Source: Micropterix aruncella
Lineage: Eukaryota > Arthropoda > Insecta > Lepidoptera > Micropterigidae
DNA: 64,000 nt
Direction: 5' to 3'
NCBI GenBank assembly: GCA_944548615.1
Contig: OX155954.1
Span: forward strand, 7,126,924 to 7,190,923
This document shows, one piece after another, positions 3,387 to 60,095 of this stretch. The notes below the pieces were generated by a model. The model saw nothing but the letters and a program-made list of their open reading frames with translations, was not told the DNA's origin and did not search any database. Numbering within the stretch: position 1 is the first letter of the stretch; every line of letters begins with the position of its first letter. Position numbers and translations under genes: made by a program.

Positions 3387-4816
3387 CTGCAATCGATAAA
3401 ACAACATATTAAATGTCTTTGCTAAAAGTTATTCAGTAGACATATGTATAAAACTAGCTGCCTGCGAAAGAGAATTGCCGTTTTTTGTGGGCGAAGTTAA
3501 ACCCACATATGCTGTATTTTAAATTAGTTTACGGTACCAAAGTCGCCCGCCATTTTGCGTAATTGTTGCATCCGGGGCGCGGATCGCGATTGTTGGCGGT
3601 TCAAAGATTCATTCAAGACTAACGTAGTATTTATATATTTTTTGTTTAAGACTTTTTGAGAAAGGGTGAGTTTGTTGCTCGCTATAAAAATATTCTCTGT
3701 TGACAAACGATCTCCCTTAACAGCTGTTAAGTGAGATAAGTATGCCTATAGGTCAAAAAATTGCAAAATCTTCTATTGTTTGGTTGTTATATATTGCTAT
3801 AATCTGAGGTGGATGAGGTTGGTGGGGATGTAATTGCATGCATTTGTTAGGTTGATAACAAATCTATGCTATTTTACCCTCACCAGCCTCATCCACCTCA
3901 GATTACAGTAATGCATAACAGCCAAACAATAAGTACACTATATATGGCTGCTAAAATATTTACCCACCTTCCAAGTAAAATCAAATGAAAACCTCTTAAT
4001 GCGAAAGTGAATGCCTGGCCGTTTAGAAAAATGTTTTTGAGCATTAGTGGATTATTTACTAAAATAGCAGCAATTTAATTTGTTGTAAATTTTAATTTCG
4101 CAATAATCCATTAATGTTGAATTATTTGGTAAGAATATAATTGAGTATTATTTATAATAAAAGTTCGAAGTTCAAAGTTCCAATTATGATCAATTGCATA
4201 TTTTTTTTTGTATAATAAATATTTTAAATTATATTAGCTATTCGTATTTTATTTGCGGAATTTGTATTTTTTTATATTATTAGTGAATTATTTTCATCTT
4301 TATTTCTTCTCATATGAGTTCGGTGCCTACATATTGAATCCTATCTGTTTCAGCTATTTCATTTTATATATTTCTAAATGATAATGTCATATAGCTTAAT
4401 TGTACATTTCGATGTTTTAATATGTAAAGATTGTTATTATTTTGTTTCTTTCTAATTTCATTTTATTATTATTAATATCATTCGTTAGATAGTATAGGTG
4501 ATCCAGTGAAATAATGATATCAATTAATTAGATTATTCAAATAAGTAAAAATTGACAATCCGATATGATAACAGGAAATTATGAGATACGTAATGTAGGT
4601 GAGATACGTAATGTACATTATCACCACGAATGTTTTACCATAATTCGGACAATAAACGTATTTCTGTTTCCATATCTGACTATTTGATATGACCTGCGCG
4701 CTGGTAGAAAAAGCGAGCGGGAGATTTGAATCTACTTTCTGACGGGGAAAAAGAAATTAAATTTCTAAATTGCGATGAAGACTCCACAGCCGCAAAGGAT
4801 AAAAAATAATAATCAC
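3387..4816 (-). other. Intron with snap-back MITE
   Basis: Contains the hairpin MITE at 3772-3933. The remainder, including 3934-4680, is very AT-rich and holds no recognised gene or repeat. Confidence 0.65.
3772..3933. mobile_element. Snap-back MITE, about 160 bp
   Basis: The left arm (TATTGTTTGGTTGTTATA, later AATCTGAGGTGGATGAGG) is repeated inverted on the right (AATCTGAGGTGGATGAGG and ATTGTTTGGCTGTTATG in reverse complement). The arms are about 57 bp around a loop of about 48 bp. There is no coding capacity. Confidence 0.8.
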
Positions 4817-15587: not shown

Positions 15588-16296
15588 ATTGAGGTGTCGA
15601 CTACAACGGGCGAACCCGTCACCCCAGGCTTGTATAACGATATAGATCATTCTTTCAGCCGTCGGATGAGCGTAGAAGACTTGGGGATAAGACAATCTAC
15701 TGTCTAGTTCACCAGCAACCCGTTAGAGTCCAACGCCTTACGGCGAGGCACCGGGAAAGGTACCAGCGGGCAGCCTCACCCCCTAACTACGAGTTTTGGC
15801 AGGATATCTCCGCCTGGAATTAACCTTCAGGATACCTTCGTCCTCCCGACTGGTTACAGGTCCGAAGTCGCTTACGCATCCTCTACCTGTTGTATTACAG
15901 CGGTAATTCAGTTTGAATTTATCGCGGACCTGGGCGTTCTTTGCCCGTAGTGCCACACGGGGTCGAGTGGCCCAAGGTCATATCAAGAGTGGTATGACAT
16001 CAGGTGAAACATCCACCCCAAGTATATTTCCATAGTCTCCAGACCCCTTCAGTAATTAGTCAGAATGCACAACCGATTGGCTTCGCCGACGGGTGCGCAA
16101 ACCGTCCAGTGGCGCCGGGATGCAATCCCGCCGGTAGAAACCGGTCCACCAGTTCTGAGGCCTGTGACACGGGAGTCTTACCCGGGGTAGCCTTCCTTTC
16201 GAGGAGGCTTCTGAATAGGATCTGAATCGTAAGTTGAGCCGATCCGAGAACAAAATGGATCTTGTGGCCCAAGCTGCACGAAACCGTTCACCACCC
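15588..16296 (-). mobile_element. Family-A retroposon, full length, copy 2
   Basis: Flanked by a 21-bp duplication beginning ACATAGACAAGGACAGG at 15567 and 16297. It has the GTCGACTACAACGGGCG terminus at the left (3' end) and GTGGCCCAAGCTGC near the right. It belongs to a diverged subfamily shared with 49888-50607. Confidence 0.85.
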
Positions 16297-16317
16297 ACAT
16301 AGACAAGGACAGGATGG

Positions 16318-16522
16318 CGGTGTCGACTACAACGGGTGAACCTGTCACCCCAGGCTGGTATAACAATATAGATCGTTCTTTCAGTCGTGGGATGAGCGTA
16401 GAAGACTTGAGGACAAGACAATCTACTGTCTAGTTCACCAGCAACCCGTTAGAGTCCAACCGGGAAAGGTAGCCAGCGGGCAGCCTCACCCCCTAACTAC
16501 CAGTTAGGGGGTGAGGCTGCCC
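16318..16522 (-). mobile_element. Family-A copy 3, 5'-truncated with snap-back end
   Basis: Begins immediately after the second target duplication of copy 2 and holds only about 180 bp next to the GTCGAC end. It stops in a hairpin at 16478-16522. CATAGACAAGGACAG recurs at about 16538 and 16584 beyond it, so the target motif has been multiplied. Confidence 0.75.
16478..16522. repeat. Snap-back inverted duplication
   Basis: Perfect 20-bp arms, GGGCAGCCTCACCCCCTAAC (16478-16497) and its reverse complement (16503-16522), around TACCA, at the truncation point of family-A copy 3. Confidence 0.9.
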
Positions 16523-21858: not shown

Positions 21859-22429
21859 CTTTACGACATAAAATTTATTATTCTCCAAAACAGTAAGAGA
21901 ATAGGTCGTTACAAGGAAACTTCAAAATGCTGAAACGTCTAACGCCTTTTTGACACGTCACTACAGCTTACAGGCATCAATAATGGCCACAAGAGTAAAA
22001 AAATATTAAAAACGAACAGAAAATATCAAAAATATCGCCTTACATTATGGTTGATTAAACTTGGCAGAAGAGAGACAAAAAAAAATTATTAACATTTTTG
22101 AAATATATTTTTTTCTATACACATATTTATATTTATTCTATTTAAGTATTTATTATATACGTATTATAAACAATTATTATTTATTGTTATCTATTACTAA
22201 TGAAAATTGCCTACTGAAAATTTAATTTTTAACCTAAATTAATTCCGAAATTTTGTGTGAAAAACATTTATTTATAATATCATTTGGTTTTGGTATTCGT
22301 CTTCTACTTAAAACAGGCTCTGCCTAGTTTTAGGGGCGAAACAAATTATGTTTTATTTAAATACTAACGGATATTTTTTTTGTGATCGAATAAATAAATA
22401 ATTAAAAATTATGTATATGAATAGGTATA

Positions 22430-23206
<777 letters not shown>

Positions 23207-36004: not shown

Positions 36005-36346
36005 TCAGTCCGTTGTTTTGCGGGTAGGCCGCAAACCGCTGCCGCCACTGCGTAGGTTATAACGGTGGTGGGGGGCCGGGCTCGGAGCGCGGGAATTTTT
36101 AAAATCCGTCTTGCACACAACACTCACTGTATCCTGTTTTACGTCTTTGCGTTCGGCGTTCGGCGGCGGGAACATTTTAAGAAGAGGGTTCCACGTAGAA
36201 GAGAGTTTGTAGCCGTCATCTCTATTGAAGTTCGGAGTTCTTCTTATTTCAATGGCTTCCCGGATCATGCGAGGAAAGTAGAATTGTTCCTTCGATAGAA
36301 CAATGGGATTTTGAAACTGCATCCAGTGGTTACTTCCGCTATCCAA
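36005..36346 (-). pseudogene. Inverted duplicate of the Penelope-like C-terminus
   Basis: Open frame on the minus strand identical at protein level to the last 113 residues of the 36491-37405 frame (SGSNHWMQFQNPIVLSK to LRPTRKTTD). It is part of the left arm, not a gene in its own right. Confidence 0.9.
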
Positions 36347-36460
36347 TATATGTTCGCAGATCGCCGATTTTTCTCGCTGAACGTTTTTAACAGCTTTGAT
36401 GTGTTCTGTCAGTCGCGTGGCTATGGGCCGTTTCGTTTGTCCAACGTAGGCTAGACCGCG

Positions 36461-36492
36461 AAAAATGGTAAGGACGGCTCCTTACCATTTTT
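36461..36492. repeat. Palindrome at the arm/body junction
   Basis: AAAAATGGTAAGGA (36461-36474) and TCCTTACCATTTTT (36479-36492) around CGGC. Confidence 0.95.
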
Positions 36493-37405
36493 GGATGTCA
36501 AAGTGACGAGGAGAAGTGACAATACTCTCGGACATACGGTATATCGGAAGCCCACACATACGGACAGATATTTGCATGCAAGCTCACACCATCATCCCTA
36601 CCATCTACGTTCAGTGCAAACGTCGCTCGTGAATCGAGCACGCGATCTATGCGACACTGAGCATTTTCCGAAGGAGATGGAACATGTCAATGATGTCCTT
36701 AGGAAAAATGGATACGGAAAATATCACGAGACACGCACACGATCTAATACGGACGAAACTCAAAAACCGAGCAGATCAAGAGCATTCTTACCATACGTCA
36801 AGGGCGTGACAGATCGAATAAGTAAGATGCTAAACAGATTCGATATAAAAACGATCTTCAAACCGACCCAAAATATAGCTCGATTTTTGAGGCCTGTAAA
36901 GGATGTAATACCACTGCAAACCCCGGGTGTGTATAAAGTCGAATGCAGCTGCGGTCTAGCCTACGTTGGACAAACGAAACGGCCCATAGCCACGCGACTG
37001 ACAGAACACATCAAAGCTGTTAAAAACGTTCAGCGAGAAAAATCGGCGATCTGCGAACATATATTGGATAGCGGAAGTAACCACTGGATGCAGTTTCAAA
37101 ATCCCATTGTTCTATCGAAGGAACAATTCTACTTTCCTCGCATGATCCGGGAAGCCATTGAAATAAGAAGAACTCCGAACTTCAATAGAGATGACGGCTA
37201 CAAACTCTCTTCTACGTGGAACCCTCTTCTTAAAATGTTCCCGCCGCCGAACGCCGAACGCAAAGACGTAAAACAGGATACAGTGAGTGTTGTGTGCAAG
37301 ACGGATTTTAAAAATTCCCGCGCTCCGAGCCCGGCCCCCCACCACCGTTATAACCTACGCAGTGGCGGCAGCGGTTTGCGGCCTACCCGCAAAACAACGG
37401 ACTGA
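36491..37405 (+). CDS. Penelope-like RT C-terminus plus GIY-YIG endonuclease, 5'-truncated
   Basis: A 305-codon frame ending at the TGA at 37403-37405. Residues 1-30 match the end of a Penelope-type RT (DVKVTRR, LGHTVYRKPTHTDRYLHA). The GIY-YIG nuclease lies at about residues 146-235: GVYKVECSCG (146-155), YVGQTKR (158-164), TRLTEH (168-173), ICEHILDSG (187-195) and FYFPRMIREAIEIRRTPN (213-230). A basic, proline-rich C-terminus follows. The nuclease nicks target DNA for priming. The RT catalytic palm is missing, so this copy cannot move by itself. Confidence 0.88.
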   Translation: MDVKVTRRSDNTLGHTVYRKPTHTDRYLHASSHHHPYHLRSVQTSLVNRARDLCDTEHFPKEMEHVNDVLRKNGYGKYHETRTRSNTDETQKPSRSRAFLPYVKGVTDRISKMLNRFDIKTIFKPTQNIARFLRPVKDVIPLQTPGVYKVECSCGLAYVGQTKRPIATRLTEHIKAVKNVQREKSAICEHILDSGSNHWMQFQNPIVLSKEQFYFPRMIREAIEIRRTPNFNRDDGYKLSSTWNPLLKMFPPPNAERKDVKQDTVSVVCKTDFKNSRAPSPAPHHRYNLRSGGSGLRPTRKTTD

Positions 37406-49887: not shown

Positions 49888-50607
49888 GCGTTTAGAGTTG
49901 TCGGCTACAACGGGCGAACCAGTCACCCCAGGAAGTTTTAACGATAGCGATCGTTCTACCTCCCGTGAGGTGAGCGTAAAAGACTATGTGACGAGTACAC
50001 ATTTACCGTCCAGCAAAGCCAACATGCCCGTCAGAGGCCAACGCCTTACGGCGAGGCACCGGGTGGCAGCCCGGCACCCGGTGCCTCGCCGTACAAGCTG
50101 GCAGCCTCGCCCCCTGACTACTAGTTTTGGCAGGGTATCTCCATCAAGAATTAACCATTAGGATACCTTCCACCTCCCGCGTACGAAGTCGCTTGCGCGG
50201 CCTTTACCTGCCGTATATTCAGCGGTGATTTAGCTTGAACCTAACGCGGACCATTGGCATCTTTATTTGGCTCTGAATTCAAGATCAGGTAACCAATTGG
50301 TCATTTCAAGAGAGGTGGACGACAGGTCAACTTCCAACACCGCTGCTTAGGAGACAGTATACTTCCATAGACTTCACACTCCTTCAGTAATTATTCAAAA
50401 AGCACAGCCGATTGGCTGACGCCTCAGGGCAATCCCCCCAGAGGAAACAGGTCCACCAGTCGTGAGGCCTGAGATGCGAGAGTCTTTTCCGGGGTAGTCC
50501 CTCACACAAGAAGGCTACTGTATAGAAGCTGAATCGTGAGTTAGGCCGACTCTAGAAACACAATAGATCTTATGGTCCAAGCTGAACGAAAACATTCGCT
50601 ACAACAT
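49888..50607 (-). mobile_element. Family-A retroposon, full length, copy 8
   Basis: Begins GTTGTCGGCTACAACGGGCG (3' end) and reaches GGTCCAAGCTGAACG. It is of the same subfamily as 15588-16296. Possible duplication ACTAAAA on both sides. It contains a snap-back duplication at 50047-50093. Confidence 0.75.
50047..50093. repeat. Snap-back inverted duplication in family A
   Basis: Perfect 19-bp arms, TACGGCGAGGCACCGGGTG (50047-50065) and its complement (50075-50093), around 9 bases. Confidence 0.95.
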
Positions 50608-55030: not shown

Positions 55031-55053
55031 TGTGAAGAGCTTGTTAGATCCAA

Positions 55054-55509
55054 CTAGAGTTGCCAACTACAACGGGCAAACCCGTCACCTCAGGAATTTT
55101 TAACGATTAGTCGTTCTATCTCCCTGGAGTGAGCGCAGAAGCCTTGGACAAAACAGTCTACCGTCAAGCTCCGCCACATGCCCGTAAGAGGCCAACGCCT
55201 TAACCGCGAGATAGCCAGGAGTGTTACCCAGCGGGCTTACACTCACGCCCTTACTTCCAATTGCGACCAGATTACTCCAGTCTCTCGATTGGTTACGAGT
55301 TCGAGGTCGTTTGCGCGGTCCTCTCCCTTACGAAGCGGTGAAACGGTGTATATCGAATCTATCGCGGACCACGGCATCTTTGCCCGGCTGTTCACCCAGG
55401 ATCGGTTAGCCGATGGTCGTTTCAAGAGCAGTCGCCGTAAGGTCCGCAACCACCCCCGCTCTATAGGAAACAGTACTGCTTCCAGACTCCCCCGACTGTT
55501 AGTCAGAGT
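55054..55509 (-). mobile_element. Family-A copy 9, left part (3' portion), split by R1-like LINE
   Basis: From CTAGAGTTGCCAACTACAAC to CCCCCGACTGTTAGTCAGAG. The remaining portion resumes at 57250 after the LINE. Outer flanks share TTAGA(T/C)CCA. Confidence 0.85.
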
Positions 55510-56770
55510 ACGGGTACGGCCGACCAGCGTCACCAAAACCCCGACCATGGGCTGTCCACAGGGGTCAGTGTTGGGTCCTAGCCTTTGGAACATTCTCTTT
55601 GATGATTTCCTCGGTCTACCTTACCCGGAGGGGTGCACCGTCAGCGCTTATGCAGACGACGCTCTTCTCCTGGTGGGCGGCAGGAGTCGCGCAGAGGTCG
55701 AGAGAAGGGTGGCTGACTAGCTGGACCTGATCCTCGGATGGGGTCAGCGAAACAGACTCACCTTCTCTCCGACGAAAACTCAGGCGCTTCTCCTGAAGGG
55801 ACATCTTAAGCGGAACCCTGTCATCAGGATGAACGGTCGCCCGGTATCCTTCCCGGCCACCGTTCGATACCTGGGGGTGACGCTTACGGCTTCCCTTTCC
55901 TTTCTTTCGCACGCAAAGATTACAGCCGAAAAATCCCGGGATCTATTCTTTGCGCTCCGCGGAGCGAGTCGGGCCGACTGGGGAATTCGTTTCCCGGCGG
56001 TCATGACTATCTATAAGGGCGTCTTCGTCCCGCGTGCGACTTATGCCGCACGCGCTTGGACGGAGTCTGCTGTTCCTGAGGCGACGCGTGTCGCGCTGCT
56101 GCGCGGACAGCGCATCCCTCTCGTGGCCCTGACCGGGGCGTACAGAACGACGTCCACTCTTGCGTTACCCGTCATCGCTGGCGTTCTGCCGATTGACCTG
56201 GAGATTCTGGAGCGTGCGGCGTTGTCGCGGTACCGCCGGGGCGAGCCGGTAGTCCTTCATGGCCTGTCGATCGACCCGGTGGCGCACCGAGCTGGGGAGT
56301 TTGCCCGCCTGATTCGGGTGGAGTCCTTGCGTGTCTGGCAGGCTAGATGGGACGCCGGGGGTACGGGCCGCCTCACCCATTGCTTTTTCCCGTCCGTCGC
56401 AGTGCGGATGGCAAATTCGTTTCTGCGGTTCGACCACCATACCACGCAGCTGGTTGGGGGCCACGGAGAGTTCAGAGCCAAACTATTTGACTTTGGACTT
56501 GCCGATGACCCCCGATGCGCCTGTGGGTATGGTCGCCAAACTGCGGAACACGTAATTTGGTCTTGCCCAATTCTAGCGGCTGCACGGGAGAAATTGATGG
56601 ATGCAGTGGGCGCGTGCGTTGGGCGCTCTCCGATTTGGTACCCGGATCTGGTCAGTTGTAGGAGCTGCTTCCAGTCGTTTGGCGAGCTTGTGGAGCACTG
56701 GGTGGCTTCTTGGGAAAGCATGAGGCCTCGGGATACCCCCCAGGGGGTACCCTCTTCCTTGGTGGCGTGA
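55510..56770 (+). pseudogene. R1-clade-like ORF2, C-terminal 60%, one stop
   Basis: One frame throughout. The RT motif GCPQGSVLGPSLWNILF is followed by VSAYADDALLLV (YADD catalytic box), then LTFSPTKTQALLLKG, RYLGVTL, the thumb, and a Cys/His motif (CACGYGRQTAEHVIWSCP) typical of R1-type ORF2 C-termini. A single TAG at 55718-55720 interrupts it; the rest is intact to the TGA at 56768-56770. Missing: endonuclease and the N-terminal RT. GC-rich, unlike its surroundings. R1 clade is my best guess; a related site-specific clade is possible. Confidence 0.85.
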
Positions 56771-57110
56771 TTCGGCGGCTACTTCCAGCCCGAAGTGCCC
56801 GTCTTTGTGTCCGTCTCTTTACCGCCCCGAAGGGCGTTTCGTTCTTTGCAGGATCCAGGGATTCCTCCCCCCCGTGGCTGCTCCGAGACCTGCCCACGGA
56901 CCGTGCGCCTCCACCATCATCGTTTCTGGAGCGTCCTCTACCCCACTTACCGGCCCTAAATTTGTTATTTGTTGTTTTATTTGTTTTTATTTTGTGAATA
57001 TGGTAAATTTAGTATTATTTTTGTAAATGTTTACTTTGTAAATTCTTTTATTATTATAAATAAATGGGTTCTCGGGGCGGTACGGGGGGGGTGGTTTACC
57101 CTATTTCACC

Positions 57111-57203
57111 CCCTGCGCGTTCTACCCTTCTGGTACGCGCAGGGTTGTCGTAGCACGACATCCCGGGCAGACAAGACGACCCTCGTCGTTATAACTGCCC
57201 GGG
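57111..57203 (+). promoter_or_regulatory. Two stem-loops in the LINE 3' UTR
   Basis: CCCTGCGCGT / ACGCGCAGGG (57111-57120, 57135-57144) and CCCGGGCAG / CTGCCCGGG (57162-57170, 57195-57203). 3' UTR structure is known to guide RT binding in R-type elements; the role here is inferred. Confidence 0.5.
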
Positions 57204-57249
57204 CGGTGGGCGGGGTTTGCTGCCCTCACCTATCGCCTTGAAACTCTAA

Positions 57250-57466
57250 ACTGTTAGTCAGAGTGCACAATCGATTGGCTTACGCCGCACGCTTCGCAGA
57301 CCGTCCAGGAGCGCCAGAAGGTTGATTCCTGGGGGACACTAGCGTCCTACCCAGTCTCGCACTTCATGCGTGGAGGCCGCCGGATGGGTGTTGACCAGTG
57401 AGTGTGACCAACCCTGAACAGAATGGGTCTTCGTGGCCAACTCAGCAATGGCCCCTTAGCTTCCAG
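57250..57466 (-). mobile_element. Family-A copy 9, right part (5' portion)
   Basis: Resumes at CTGTTAGTCAGAGTGCAC and runs to GGCCCCTTAGCTTCC. Confidence 0.85.
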
Positions 57467-58534
57467 CTGATTAGACCCAGGGTTCCGTACTAACAGTTTT
57501 AGAAGATATCGCATTATCATAAAATATCACACTTTTTAATCATTTCGCACCATTTAAAAAGTCGGACGAAAAAAATACGTTTTTGGCGACTTTTAGGTCA
57601 AAACAATATATTGTTTTTTGTCATTTTTATCCTGTTCTCCCATTGCAATCGCTTGGCGAGCCAGCCGGCAAGCAGAGCAGACGGGGACGCGCTACGCTGA
57701 CGCGAGCTATTGCGAAGCCTGTTACGAGAGGCGAGGAATGGCATACTAGTATGTATGGCGCGTAGTATAGAATGTAATACATACAGCCTATGTTATTAAC
57801 TAGCATGCCTTAAGCACTCGGTAGAAGACGAATTCGTGATGCTAGCGTCGAAATGTAGCGGAATGATTAAAGTTAGGCGTAATTTCTTGCAGCTGCTATG
57901 GCGGGATATGGCCCTTTGTTGAATATTTCAAATATTGAGTTCGGAACGGGAAATTGGTTAGTGACGTCAGAGTTTAATGTTTATCGTCGCAAAATCGATG
58001 GATCTCCATTAATCGTCTAAAATTTCACTGGAAAAATATGTCAGTCCTTCTAACGTCCTAGTAAAATTATATCGGTTATTGTTTATGTTTGTTTCGTGCA
58101 AATGTAGTATAGTAGAAGAGTTACAGAACACATTTGAAGGTTGTTTTCCAGTCGGTATATCTTTGTTTAGTAGGCGGGTCGTGAAAAATACGATAAATTT
58201 CCTTGGCTAGGGCGCGGATGTTATTTCTTGCCGCAAGTAAAGTCGATGTCGTTACGCCGAAAGATATTTCTTCCCTTTCAGTTCAATAAGGAAAAGTTCA
58301 TAGATTGGCATTTCTATACAAATCTTCTTTGTTTCTACTGGAGTCGGCGACTGATGTTGTATCCGCTGCCCGATGGATCCTGCTTCTGTAGGGATGCATT
58401 GTGTAGTCACAGGTGACCGGGATGTGAGTCGCTCGCTGTGGTCTCCGTGGTTTTTAATGGTTCCATGCAGCTTGGGTGATTTTGGCGAAACTCTCTCATT
58501 TGGTTCGCCCGACTCACGGTTCAGTTCCTATTAG
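57467..58534. other. Unique-looking stretch between family-A copies
   Basis: No gene recognised. About 57640-57780 and 58195-58430 are less AT-rich, without a supported frame. Confidence 0.5.
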
Positions 58535-58757
58535 GGAGGTAATGGGCCCTTGCTGAGTTGGCCACGAAGACCCATTCTGTTCAGGGTTGGTCACACTCAC
58601 GGGTCAACACCTATCCGACGGCCTCCATGCAAGTGCAAGCCTGGGTAGGACTCTGGCCTTATGGTCAGTTTCCTCCAGGAATCAACGTTCTGGCGCTCCT
58701 GGACGGTCTGCGCACCGTGCGGCGTAAGCCAATCGACTGTGCACTCTGACTAACAAC
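58535..58757 (+). mobile_element. Family-A copy 10, 5' part
   Basis: GGTAATGGGCCCTTGCTGAG to GTGCACTCTGACTAACA. It is cut at the same point as copy 9, and its remainder is at 59635-60095. Confidence 0.85.
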
Positions 58758-58957
58758 TTGGGTTGTCGACTACAACGGGCGAGCCCGTCACCACAGGGAG
58801 TTTTAACGATTAGTCGTTCTATCTCCCTGGAGTGAGCGTAGAAGACATTGGACAAAAACAATCCGCCGTCTAGCTACGCCACAACCCGTAAGAGACCAAC
58901 GCCTTACCGCGAGATAGCCAGTAATGATTACCTGGCGGGCCCGACACTCGCGCCCTT
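58758..58957 (-). mobile_element. Family-A copy 11, 5'-truncated, in the CTGACTAACA site
   Basis: Begins ACTTGGGTTGTCGACTAC (3' end) and stops at CGCGCCCTT, about 200 bp. ACTCTGACTAACA stands on both sides (58743-58755, 58958-58970). Confidence 0.85.
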
Positions 58958-58970
58958 ACTCTGACTAACA

Positions 58971-59634
58971 ACTTGCGGTGTCAACTACAACGGGCGAGCC
59001 CGTCACCACAGGACGTTTTAACGATTTTCTCGTTCTGTCGCCCTGCAGTGAACGTAGAGACTTTGGACAGAACAAATCCAACGTCCAGCTACGTCACAAC
59101 CCGCAAGAAGCCAACGCCTTACCGCGAGATAGCCAGTGTTACCTGGCGGGCCGACCCTCGCACCCTTGCTTCCAATTGTGATCAGATTTCTCCGGTCTCT
59201 CGATTGGTTCCGAGTTCGAGGTCGCTTGCGCGGTCCTCTCCCTTACGAAGCGGTGAAACGGTGTGCACCGAATCTATCGCGGACCAAGGCGTCCTTTGCC
59301 CGACTCTGAACCAGGATCGGATTGCCAATGGTCATTTCAAGAGCAGTCGCCGTAAGGTAGACAACCACCCCCGCTCTATAGGAAACAATACAGTTCCCAG
59401 ACTCCCCCGACTGTTAGTCGGAGAGCACAGTCGATTGGCTTGCGCCGCTCGGTGCGCAGACCGTCCAGGAGCGCCAGAGGTTTGATTCCCAGGGGAGACT
59501 GGTTGACCCAGTGTCCTACCCAGGTTCGCACCCCATGCGTGGAGGCCATCGGATGGGTGTTGACCCGTGAGTGTGACCGACCCTGAACACATGGGTCATC
59601 GTGGCCACCTCATCATGGGCCCATTAGCTCCCCA
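58971..59634 (-). mobile_element. Family-A copy 12, near full length, in the same site
   Basis: From ACTTGCGGTGTCAACTACAA to GGGCCCATTAGCTCCCC. Flanked by CTGACTAACA at 58961-58970 and 59638-59647. Confidence 0.85.
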
Positions 59635-60095
59635 AACTGACTAACAGTCGGGGGAGTCTGGAAGCAGTACTGTTTCCTATAGAGCGGTGGTGGTTGCGGA
59701 CCTTACGGCGACTGCTCTTGAAATGACCATCGGCCTTCCGATCCTGGGTGAACAGCCGGGCAAAGGACGCTGTGGTCCGCGATAGTTTCGGTAAACACCG
59801 TTTCACCGCTTCGTAATGGAGAGGACCGCGCAAGCGTTCTCGAACTCGTAACCAATCGAGAGACCGGAGTAATCTGGTCACAATTGGAAGTAAGGGCGTG
59901 AGTGTAGGCCCGCTGGGTAACATTCCTGGCTATCTCGCGGTTAAGGCGTTGGCCTCTTACGGGCTTGTGGCGTAGCTAGACGGTGGACTGTTTTGTCCTC
60001 AAGTCTTCTGCGCTCACTCCAGGGAGATAGAACGACTAATCGTTAAAACTTCCTGAGGTGACGGGCTCGCCCGCTGTAGTCGACAACCCAAGTTG
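59635..60095 (+). mobile_element. Family-A copy 10, 3' part
   Basis: CTGACTAACAGTCGGGGGAG to GTAGTCGACAACCCAAGT; continues copy 10 after the inserted copies 11 and 12. Confidence 0.85.

Follow-up and report, generated by a model that had tools for sequence, protein, structure and literature searches.

Sequence-specific long interspersed nuclear elements (LINEs) are known from a limited set of targets. The passages on target classes in PMC4640811 and PMC5035012 name the genes for ribosomal, transfer and small nuclear RNAs, spliced-leader exons, microsatellites, telomeric repeats and transposons; a passenger resembling a short interspersed nuclear element (SINE) is not among the targets in those passages. 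Non-autonomous elements at a LINE target are described in the relevant part of PMC3414825 for Drosophila, where R2/R1 hybrid short internally deleted elements (SIDEs) occupy the R1 target with 14-bp R1-type duplications and are interspersed with R1 in tandem arrays, a duplication lying between units. Here we describe a 64,000-nt stretch of the moth Micropterix aruncella (GCA_944548615.1, contig OX155954.1, positions 7,126,924 to 7,190,923; hereafter the window), in which a LINE and copies of a short repeat, family A, have entered other copies of family A. Across the genome assembly, 30 of 40 sampled copies of this LINE are joined to family A at one phosphodiester, AC^TGTTAGTCAGAG, and always in a single orientation. 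Our reading, to which we assign a probability of about 0.64, is that of a site-specific LINE of the R1 clade together with a non-autonomous passenger, A, which itself bears the preferred target.

Nested insertions in the window

Family-A copy 9 is split by a 5′-truncated R1-type LINE (55510..57249, plus strand). The sense of copy 9, set from 5′ truncation and duplications, is the minus strand, so that its element 3′ part (55050..55509) precedes the LINE and its element 5′ part (57250..57468) follows it. The former ends in the left target duplication, ACTGTTAGTCAGAGT (55495..55509, plus), and the same 15 bp are present again at 57250 as the right duplication (57250..57264, plus), with the nick probably at 57251^57252. 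The LINE comprises a reverse-transcriptase fragment, with one in-frame TAG at 55718, and a 3′ untranslated region (UTR) ending CTTGAAACTCTAA(AC), the 3′ end of which was compared with 39 further copies.

Family-A copy 10 lies on the plus strand; its 5′ part (58531..58755) ends at the target site and its 3′ part (59637..60094) resumes beyond copies 11 and 12, both antisense to it. The 5′-truncated copy 11 (58756..58957, minus) is flanked on its 3′ side by a 13-bp duplication, ACTCTGACTAACA (sense TGTTAGTCAGAGT; 58743..58755, minus), a second copy of which (58958..58970, minus) separates it from copy 12. The latter (58971..59636, minus) is near full-length, has the 3′ end GACACCGCAAGT, and carries on its 5′ side a 10-bp duplication (sense TGTTAGTCAG; 59637..59646, minus). 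The shorter string CTGACTAACA is present at 58746, 58961 and 59637. An 18-bp repeat at copy 11 consists of the 13-bp duplication plus five bases of A's own end. The duplications of the two copies share their start base despite unequal length, and because their lengths differ at one nick we regard the insertions as two events. The first-pass annotation of the window had reported both the interruption of copy 9 and that of copy 10, at the same sequence read from the other strand; both were confirmed at their positions, the second case involving a 13-bp and a 10-bp duplication.

Insertion sites of the LINE

The assembly (1,078,845,590 bases, 742 contigs) was searched with the LINE 3′ UTR, the target sequence being omitted from the query. 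The best 40 scored of 872 first-look candidates were retained and their 3′ flanks read (30 loci, nine more loci and the window copy). These counts, and those for family A given below (40 of 1033 candidates), describe samples rather than the whole genome. The motif ACTGTTAGTCAGAG is matched at ≥12/14 bases in 28/40 flanks; two more copies (L047 and L056) were assigned to the site by their A context rather than by sequence score, which is lower since their duplication is shortened and gives way to an A element. The first-pass annotation had called for the LINE junctions to be mapped and counted at this site, and their mapping in the sample supports its interpretation.

Two pairs of loci are likely duplicates: L060 and L061, whose flanks are 99.9% alike along 1.5 kb, and L071 and L074, 98.8% alike along 428 bp. 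With the two redundant copies dropped, 29/38 remain at the site. Five more pairs among L033, L035, L036, L041, L056, L058 and L059 are 94–97% alike over 280–680 bp, but lie in A sequence near the LINE and were retained in the counts. The 5′ ends were surveyed in 30 loci (longer stretches for four), in L013 and in the window. In 18 of the 24 copies with a visible 5′ end the host A ends at the site on that side also; four are off-target (L035, L042, L045 and L062), and in L046 and L057 A is seen on the 3′ side only. The 5′ ends of the LINE mostly differ between copies, apart from a breakpoint at LINE position 4326 shared by L054 and L057, and the site-inserted copies are spread over many contigs, in different host-A copies. 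In a sample collected with family A as query, one of 29 other loci (L013) again has this LINE inserted at this site.

The ten off-site copies are L035, L042, L045, L048, L051, L052, L059, L062, L071 and L074; that of L048 lies within an A, at a different position. ACTG begins all 40 of the 3′ flanks and ACTGT 39. The L071 and L074 copies are found at ACTGTCCC[GA]TCTAGATGCGCTGG, a flank which by eye resembles those following A in L036 and L116 and may represent another repeat hit by both LINE and A. Locus L078 contains an insertion of about 2 kb, unmatched by this LINE, in A near position 255; no junction of the kind described here is present.

A nick common to LINE and family A

Read by eye, the duplications of the off-target copies L035, L045 and L062 are CTGTTAATATTATT, TGTTACCTAGTAAT and CTGTTAGTAAAAT. 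These fit a LINE end of ...AACTCTAAAC with the nick before TGTT; family A ends ...AGT ahead of TGTTAG. From the two ends it follows that both elements would use AC^TGTTAGTCAG. The offset of 2–3 bp between LINE and A junctions, noted in the first-pass annotation, is thus judged to be apparent, since the off-target LINE duplications fit the nick at which A also joins.

Target duplications were detected in 27 A copies and none in 26 more. TG occurs within the first 3 nt of the duplication in 20 of these 27, versus a background of 0.119 (p ~1e-13). Among A copies resembling copy 12, TG starts 39/39 of the 3′ flanks and TGT 33/39, the 5′ duplications of those copies being unread. Moreover, three off-site LINE copies adjoin an A with an identical 3′ duplication: TGTTAATATTATT in L035, TGTGGCGTACC in L042 and TGTTGATTAAAACTA in L059, the last with a further A piece on the 5′ side, ending at consensus position ~509. 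Since the duplications are shared, LINE and A have used a common nick outside the canonical site as well.

Identity of the LINE

The LINE copy at locus L064 is about 5.85 kb long and has two uninterrupted open frames of 483 and 1059 amino acids, stop to stop. Pfam analysis of the larger, open reading frame 2 (ORF2), reveals RVT_1 (8e-34) and Exo_endo_phos_2 (4e-18), placing a reverse transcriptase and an endonuclease of the apurinic/apyrimidinic (APE) type in the one frame. The upstream 483-residue frame displays CCHC-like spacing by eye and has no Pfam match. At the 5′ junction of this copy the host A stops at CGACT, with no clear duplication. The 40 best-scoring LINE copies show no difference along 180 bp, which marks the family as young; it is also apparently autonomous.

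The endonuclease has its best PDB match in R1Bm (2ei9, 3.2e-27), with TRAS1 (1wdu) at 2e-10. Because R1Bm is the closest of the solved structures, the LINE is putatively assigned to the R1 clade, in agreement with the label given to it in the first-pass annotation. The closest ORF2 protein relatives are 44–46% identical and carry no element name. Membership of the R1 family proper, which is defined by the 28S ribosomal DNA (rDNA) site, is not indicated: 30 of the 40 copies lie at the A site and ten at other flanks. No ribosomal RNA match was found in 34–64 kb of the window, the ten off-target LINE flanks falling outside that search.

Family A

The family A consensus is 672 nt long with no open frame through its whole length. 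Copies are short, non-coding and duplication-flanked, 5′-truncated ones being present, as in SINEs, and the family is best interpreted as a non-coding, non-autonomous retroelement of ~672 nt. The mean identity of 29 full-length copies is 91%. Across 30 kb sampled on three other chromosomes, family A accounts for about 3.8 kb in seven segments; it would make up near one tenth of the genome if this sample is typical. An origin from a known RNA family or tRNA is unsupported. The sole Rfam match in 34–64 kb of the window is to mir-297, is sub-threshold (E 0.055) and lies outside A, and no tRNA was detected by ARAGORN under bacterial settings, the A and B boxes of an RNA polymerase III head being outside the scope of that check. 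The possibility that A is an internally deleted LINE (a SIDE) is likewise unsupported; no homology of its ends to the LINE was found, the sole likeness being the short 3′ tail of the CTCTA type. This tail resembles that of the LINE at P 0.001 (20,000 window 19-mers; comparison chosen after the fact). A third tail, CCCAAGT, is present in copy 11 (P 0.69 versus the LINE); other sampled copies with this tail lie elsewhere.

In the window, divergent A copies (15589-16300 and 49893-50600) have AGTAATTAGTC or AGTAATTATTC in place of the ACTGTTAGTC of other copies; the target may therefore be a late acquisition of A. Two old A copies at 15589-16515 share long flanking repeats (CTGTCCTTGTCTATGT), beside which there are further copies of GACATAGACAAGGAC.

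Insertion sites of A were examined in a search for which the copy-12 3′ end served as query. The best 40 scored of 1033 candidates were taken and, leaving out the window, 39 flanks were read. Of these, 16 match TGTTAGTCAGAG at ≥10/12 bases; with the exclusion of L098 (10/12 bases, no A continuing after), 15/39 copies are at the site. Fourteen of the 15 run into antisense A near consensus position 225, the match to A beginning 16 bases later in L081 than in the others, while in L095 the duplication is followed by another A 5′ end. L106 and L113 lie within A itself but at different positions; in L102, A sequence is close by. Assuming 100,000–250,000 A copies in the genome, the chance expectation is ~0.002–0.004 among 38, and it stays far under one with a tolerance of 3 nt. 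These figures are generous to chance because every A is counted as a target, though not every copy keeps the site. In the window, the site is occupied by 2/12 A 3′ ends. An intact site (≥12/14 bases) is carried by 33/37 uninterrupted A copies at the loci found with the A query, which itself includes the site.

Several observations weigh against a simple partnership of LINE and A. None of 37 A 3′ ends in L002–L030, the loci found with the A query, is at the site, 27 of them having the CTCTA tail, and the same is true of the six A 3′ ends in the 30 kb taken elsewhere. The site is kept in only 2/6 uninterrupted A copies in the latter sample and 3/7 in the window. Comparison of the A consensus with the near-complete LINE gave a best match of 12–15 bp (E 0.19 or worse), and the tail of copy 12 (CACCGCAAG) is unlike that of the LINE (P 0.29). 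A of the CTCTA type is therefore LINE-like in its tail yet not site-directed, whereas the copy-12 type is the reverse. Finally, much of A probably predates the present LINE burst, since its copies average 91% identity versus identity over 180 bp in the LINE. Enrichment of A insertions at the site, which the first-pass annotation likewise proposed to check, holds for the copy-12-like copies, most A copies lying elsewhere.

Alternative explanations

The LINE might read only a motif of ~10 bp, with A an abundant carrier of that motif and a passive target rather than a specific partner. The ten LINE copies elsewhere match the site over its first 4–9 bases only, and by simple arithmetic the ~2,000 copies of a 10-mer expected by chance would be outnumbered by A even if under half of its copies retain the site. 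The recognized stretch should nevertheless exceed a hexamer, because a hexamer would give several hundred thousand sites by the same arithmetic. What a passive target does not predict is that A should share nick and orientation with the LINE and hit the site itself, and the three further nicks common to both elements speak in the same direction; we consider this explanation unlikely. Hardly different in likelihood is the proposition that the A insertions are made by another LINE, related to the one in the window and alike in endonuclease preference, the window LINE sharing no more than its target. The 3′ tail of copy 12, unlike that of the window LINE, is in its favor, but the identical nick and the mixed clusters of LINE and A are not.

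The first-pass annotation had cautioned that local recombination or conversion between copies could mimic part of the pattern. Spread of a single junction by segmental duplication, gene conversion or recombination between A copies has some local support in the likely duplicates L060/L061 and L071/L074, in the five further pairs at 94–97% (though these fall within A) and in the breakpoint shared by L054 and L057. As a general account it is very improbable: the junctions occur on many contigs, in differing host A, with mostly differing 5′ ends and duplication lengths. Segmental duplication in particular is contradicted by the differing LINE 5′ ends, and one such duplication is no explanation because only two likely duplicate pairs were found. 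It is also improbable, if a little less so, that copies 11 and 12 were inserted together, as a dimeric or template-jumped complementary DNA might be. They do lie side by side and point the same way, but a full copy of the duplication lies between them, the duplication lengths are unequal, and A insertions at the site are found at other loci.

Proposed mechanism

In the reading that we prefer, a site-specific LINE with A as its passenger, the endonuclease of a young R1-clade LINE would prefer AC^TGTTAGTCAGAG, which is borne by many A copies, and the LINE would insert there by target-primed reverse transcription, generating duplications of up to ~15 bp. This LINE, or one closely related to it, would move A, since A insertions match it in nick and orientation. 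We infer that the LINE protein makes the nick and that the LINE mobilizes A. Each new A insertion could supply a fresh landing site; as A bears the preferred site, nested A-in-A, LINE-in-A and LINE-beside-A clusters split by target duplications would result. An earlier version of the LINE, less strict in its target choice, may have been responsible for moving A of the CTCTA type; alternatively, the copy-12 type may depend on a sister LINE for its movement. The proposal in the first-pass annotation that A is both target and passenger holds in its first part (LINE 30/40; copy-12-like A 15/39), while the passenger role is what the common nick suggests.

The arrangement could amount to a self-propagating target, in which the LINE machinery copies an element holding the LINE's own site and the supply of safe sites grows; we see the arguments for and against this extension as evenly balanced. 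If true, the supply of landing sites would rise with retrotransposition, unlike that of rDNA or telomere targets.

Other features of the window

Translations with GIY-YIG-like text of the kind seen in Penelope-like elements were found at 36455-37405 (plus strand) and 36005-36481 (minus strand), that on the plus strand having no Pfam match. The relatives of a CUB-type gene, 115 in number, include two noted by name, both from insects (Callosobruchus and Rhagoletis), in keeping with an arthropod host. A very long dinucleotide run of the TA type occupies 22402-23007.

Comparison with known systems

In Xenopus, the LINE Tx1L has a fixed site within another mobile element, Tx1D. Tx1L belongs to the Tx1 clade, and its target is a DNA transposon that the LINE is not known to move. 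In the open-access literature searched, we recognized no description of a LINE whose target is a SINE or the LINE's own passenger.

The LINEs Zepp and Celine, as presented in passages of PMC3446292 and PMC11288735, likewise nest in LINEs or other mobile elements; unlike the copies described here, they are clustered at proven or probable centromeres. Celine copies each have a unique duplication, according to the relevant part of PMC11288735, and hence no fixed site. An account of cockroach SINEs (PMC9191728) bears, in the portion consulted, on general SINE features. R1, TRAS and SART are characterized in parts of PMC4640811 and PMC5035012 as possessing, like this LINE, an APE-type endonuclease and sequence-specific insertion with duplications. 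The tandem LINE copies of L072, with a duplication between them, resemble the Drosophila R1 arrays with SIDEs in the passages of PMC3414825 cited above. In that account the Drosophila SIDE is targeted to 28S rDNA and carries R1 3′ sequence, whereas in the present case the non-autonomous family is its own target and showed no long 3′ homology to the LINE.

Well-studied site-specific LINEs rely on fixed host repeats such as rDNA. A mobile, amplifying target with the same nick would ease the limit on target supply and spare genes many insertions. With open LINE frames and many junctions, M. aruncella offers a natural system in which to study how an R1-type endonuclease acquires a new target, and one also suited to the coevolution of a LINE and its passenger.

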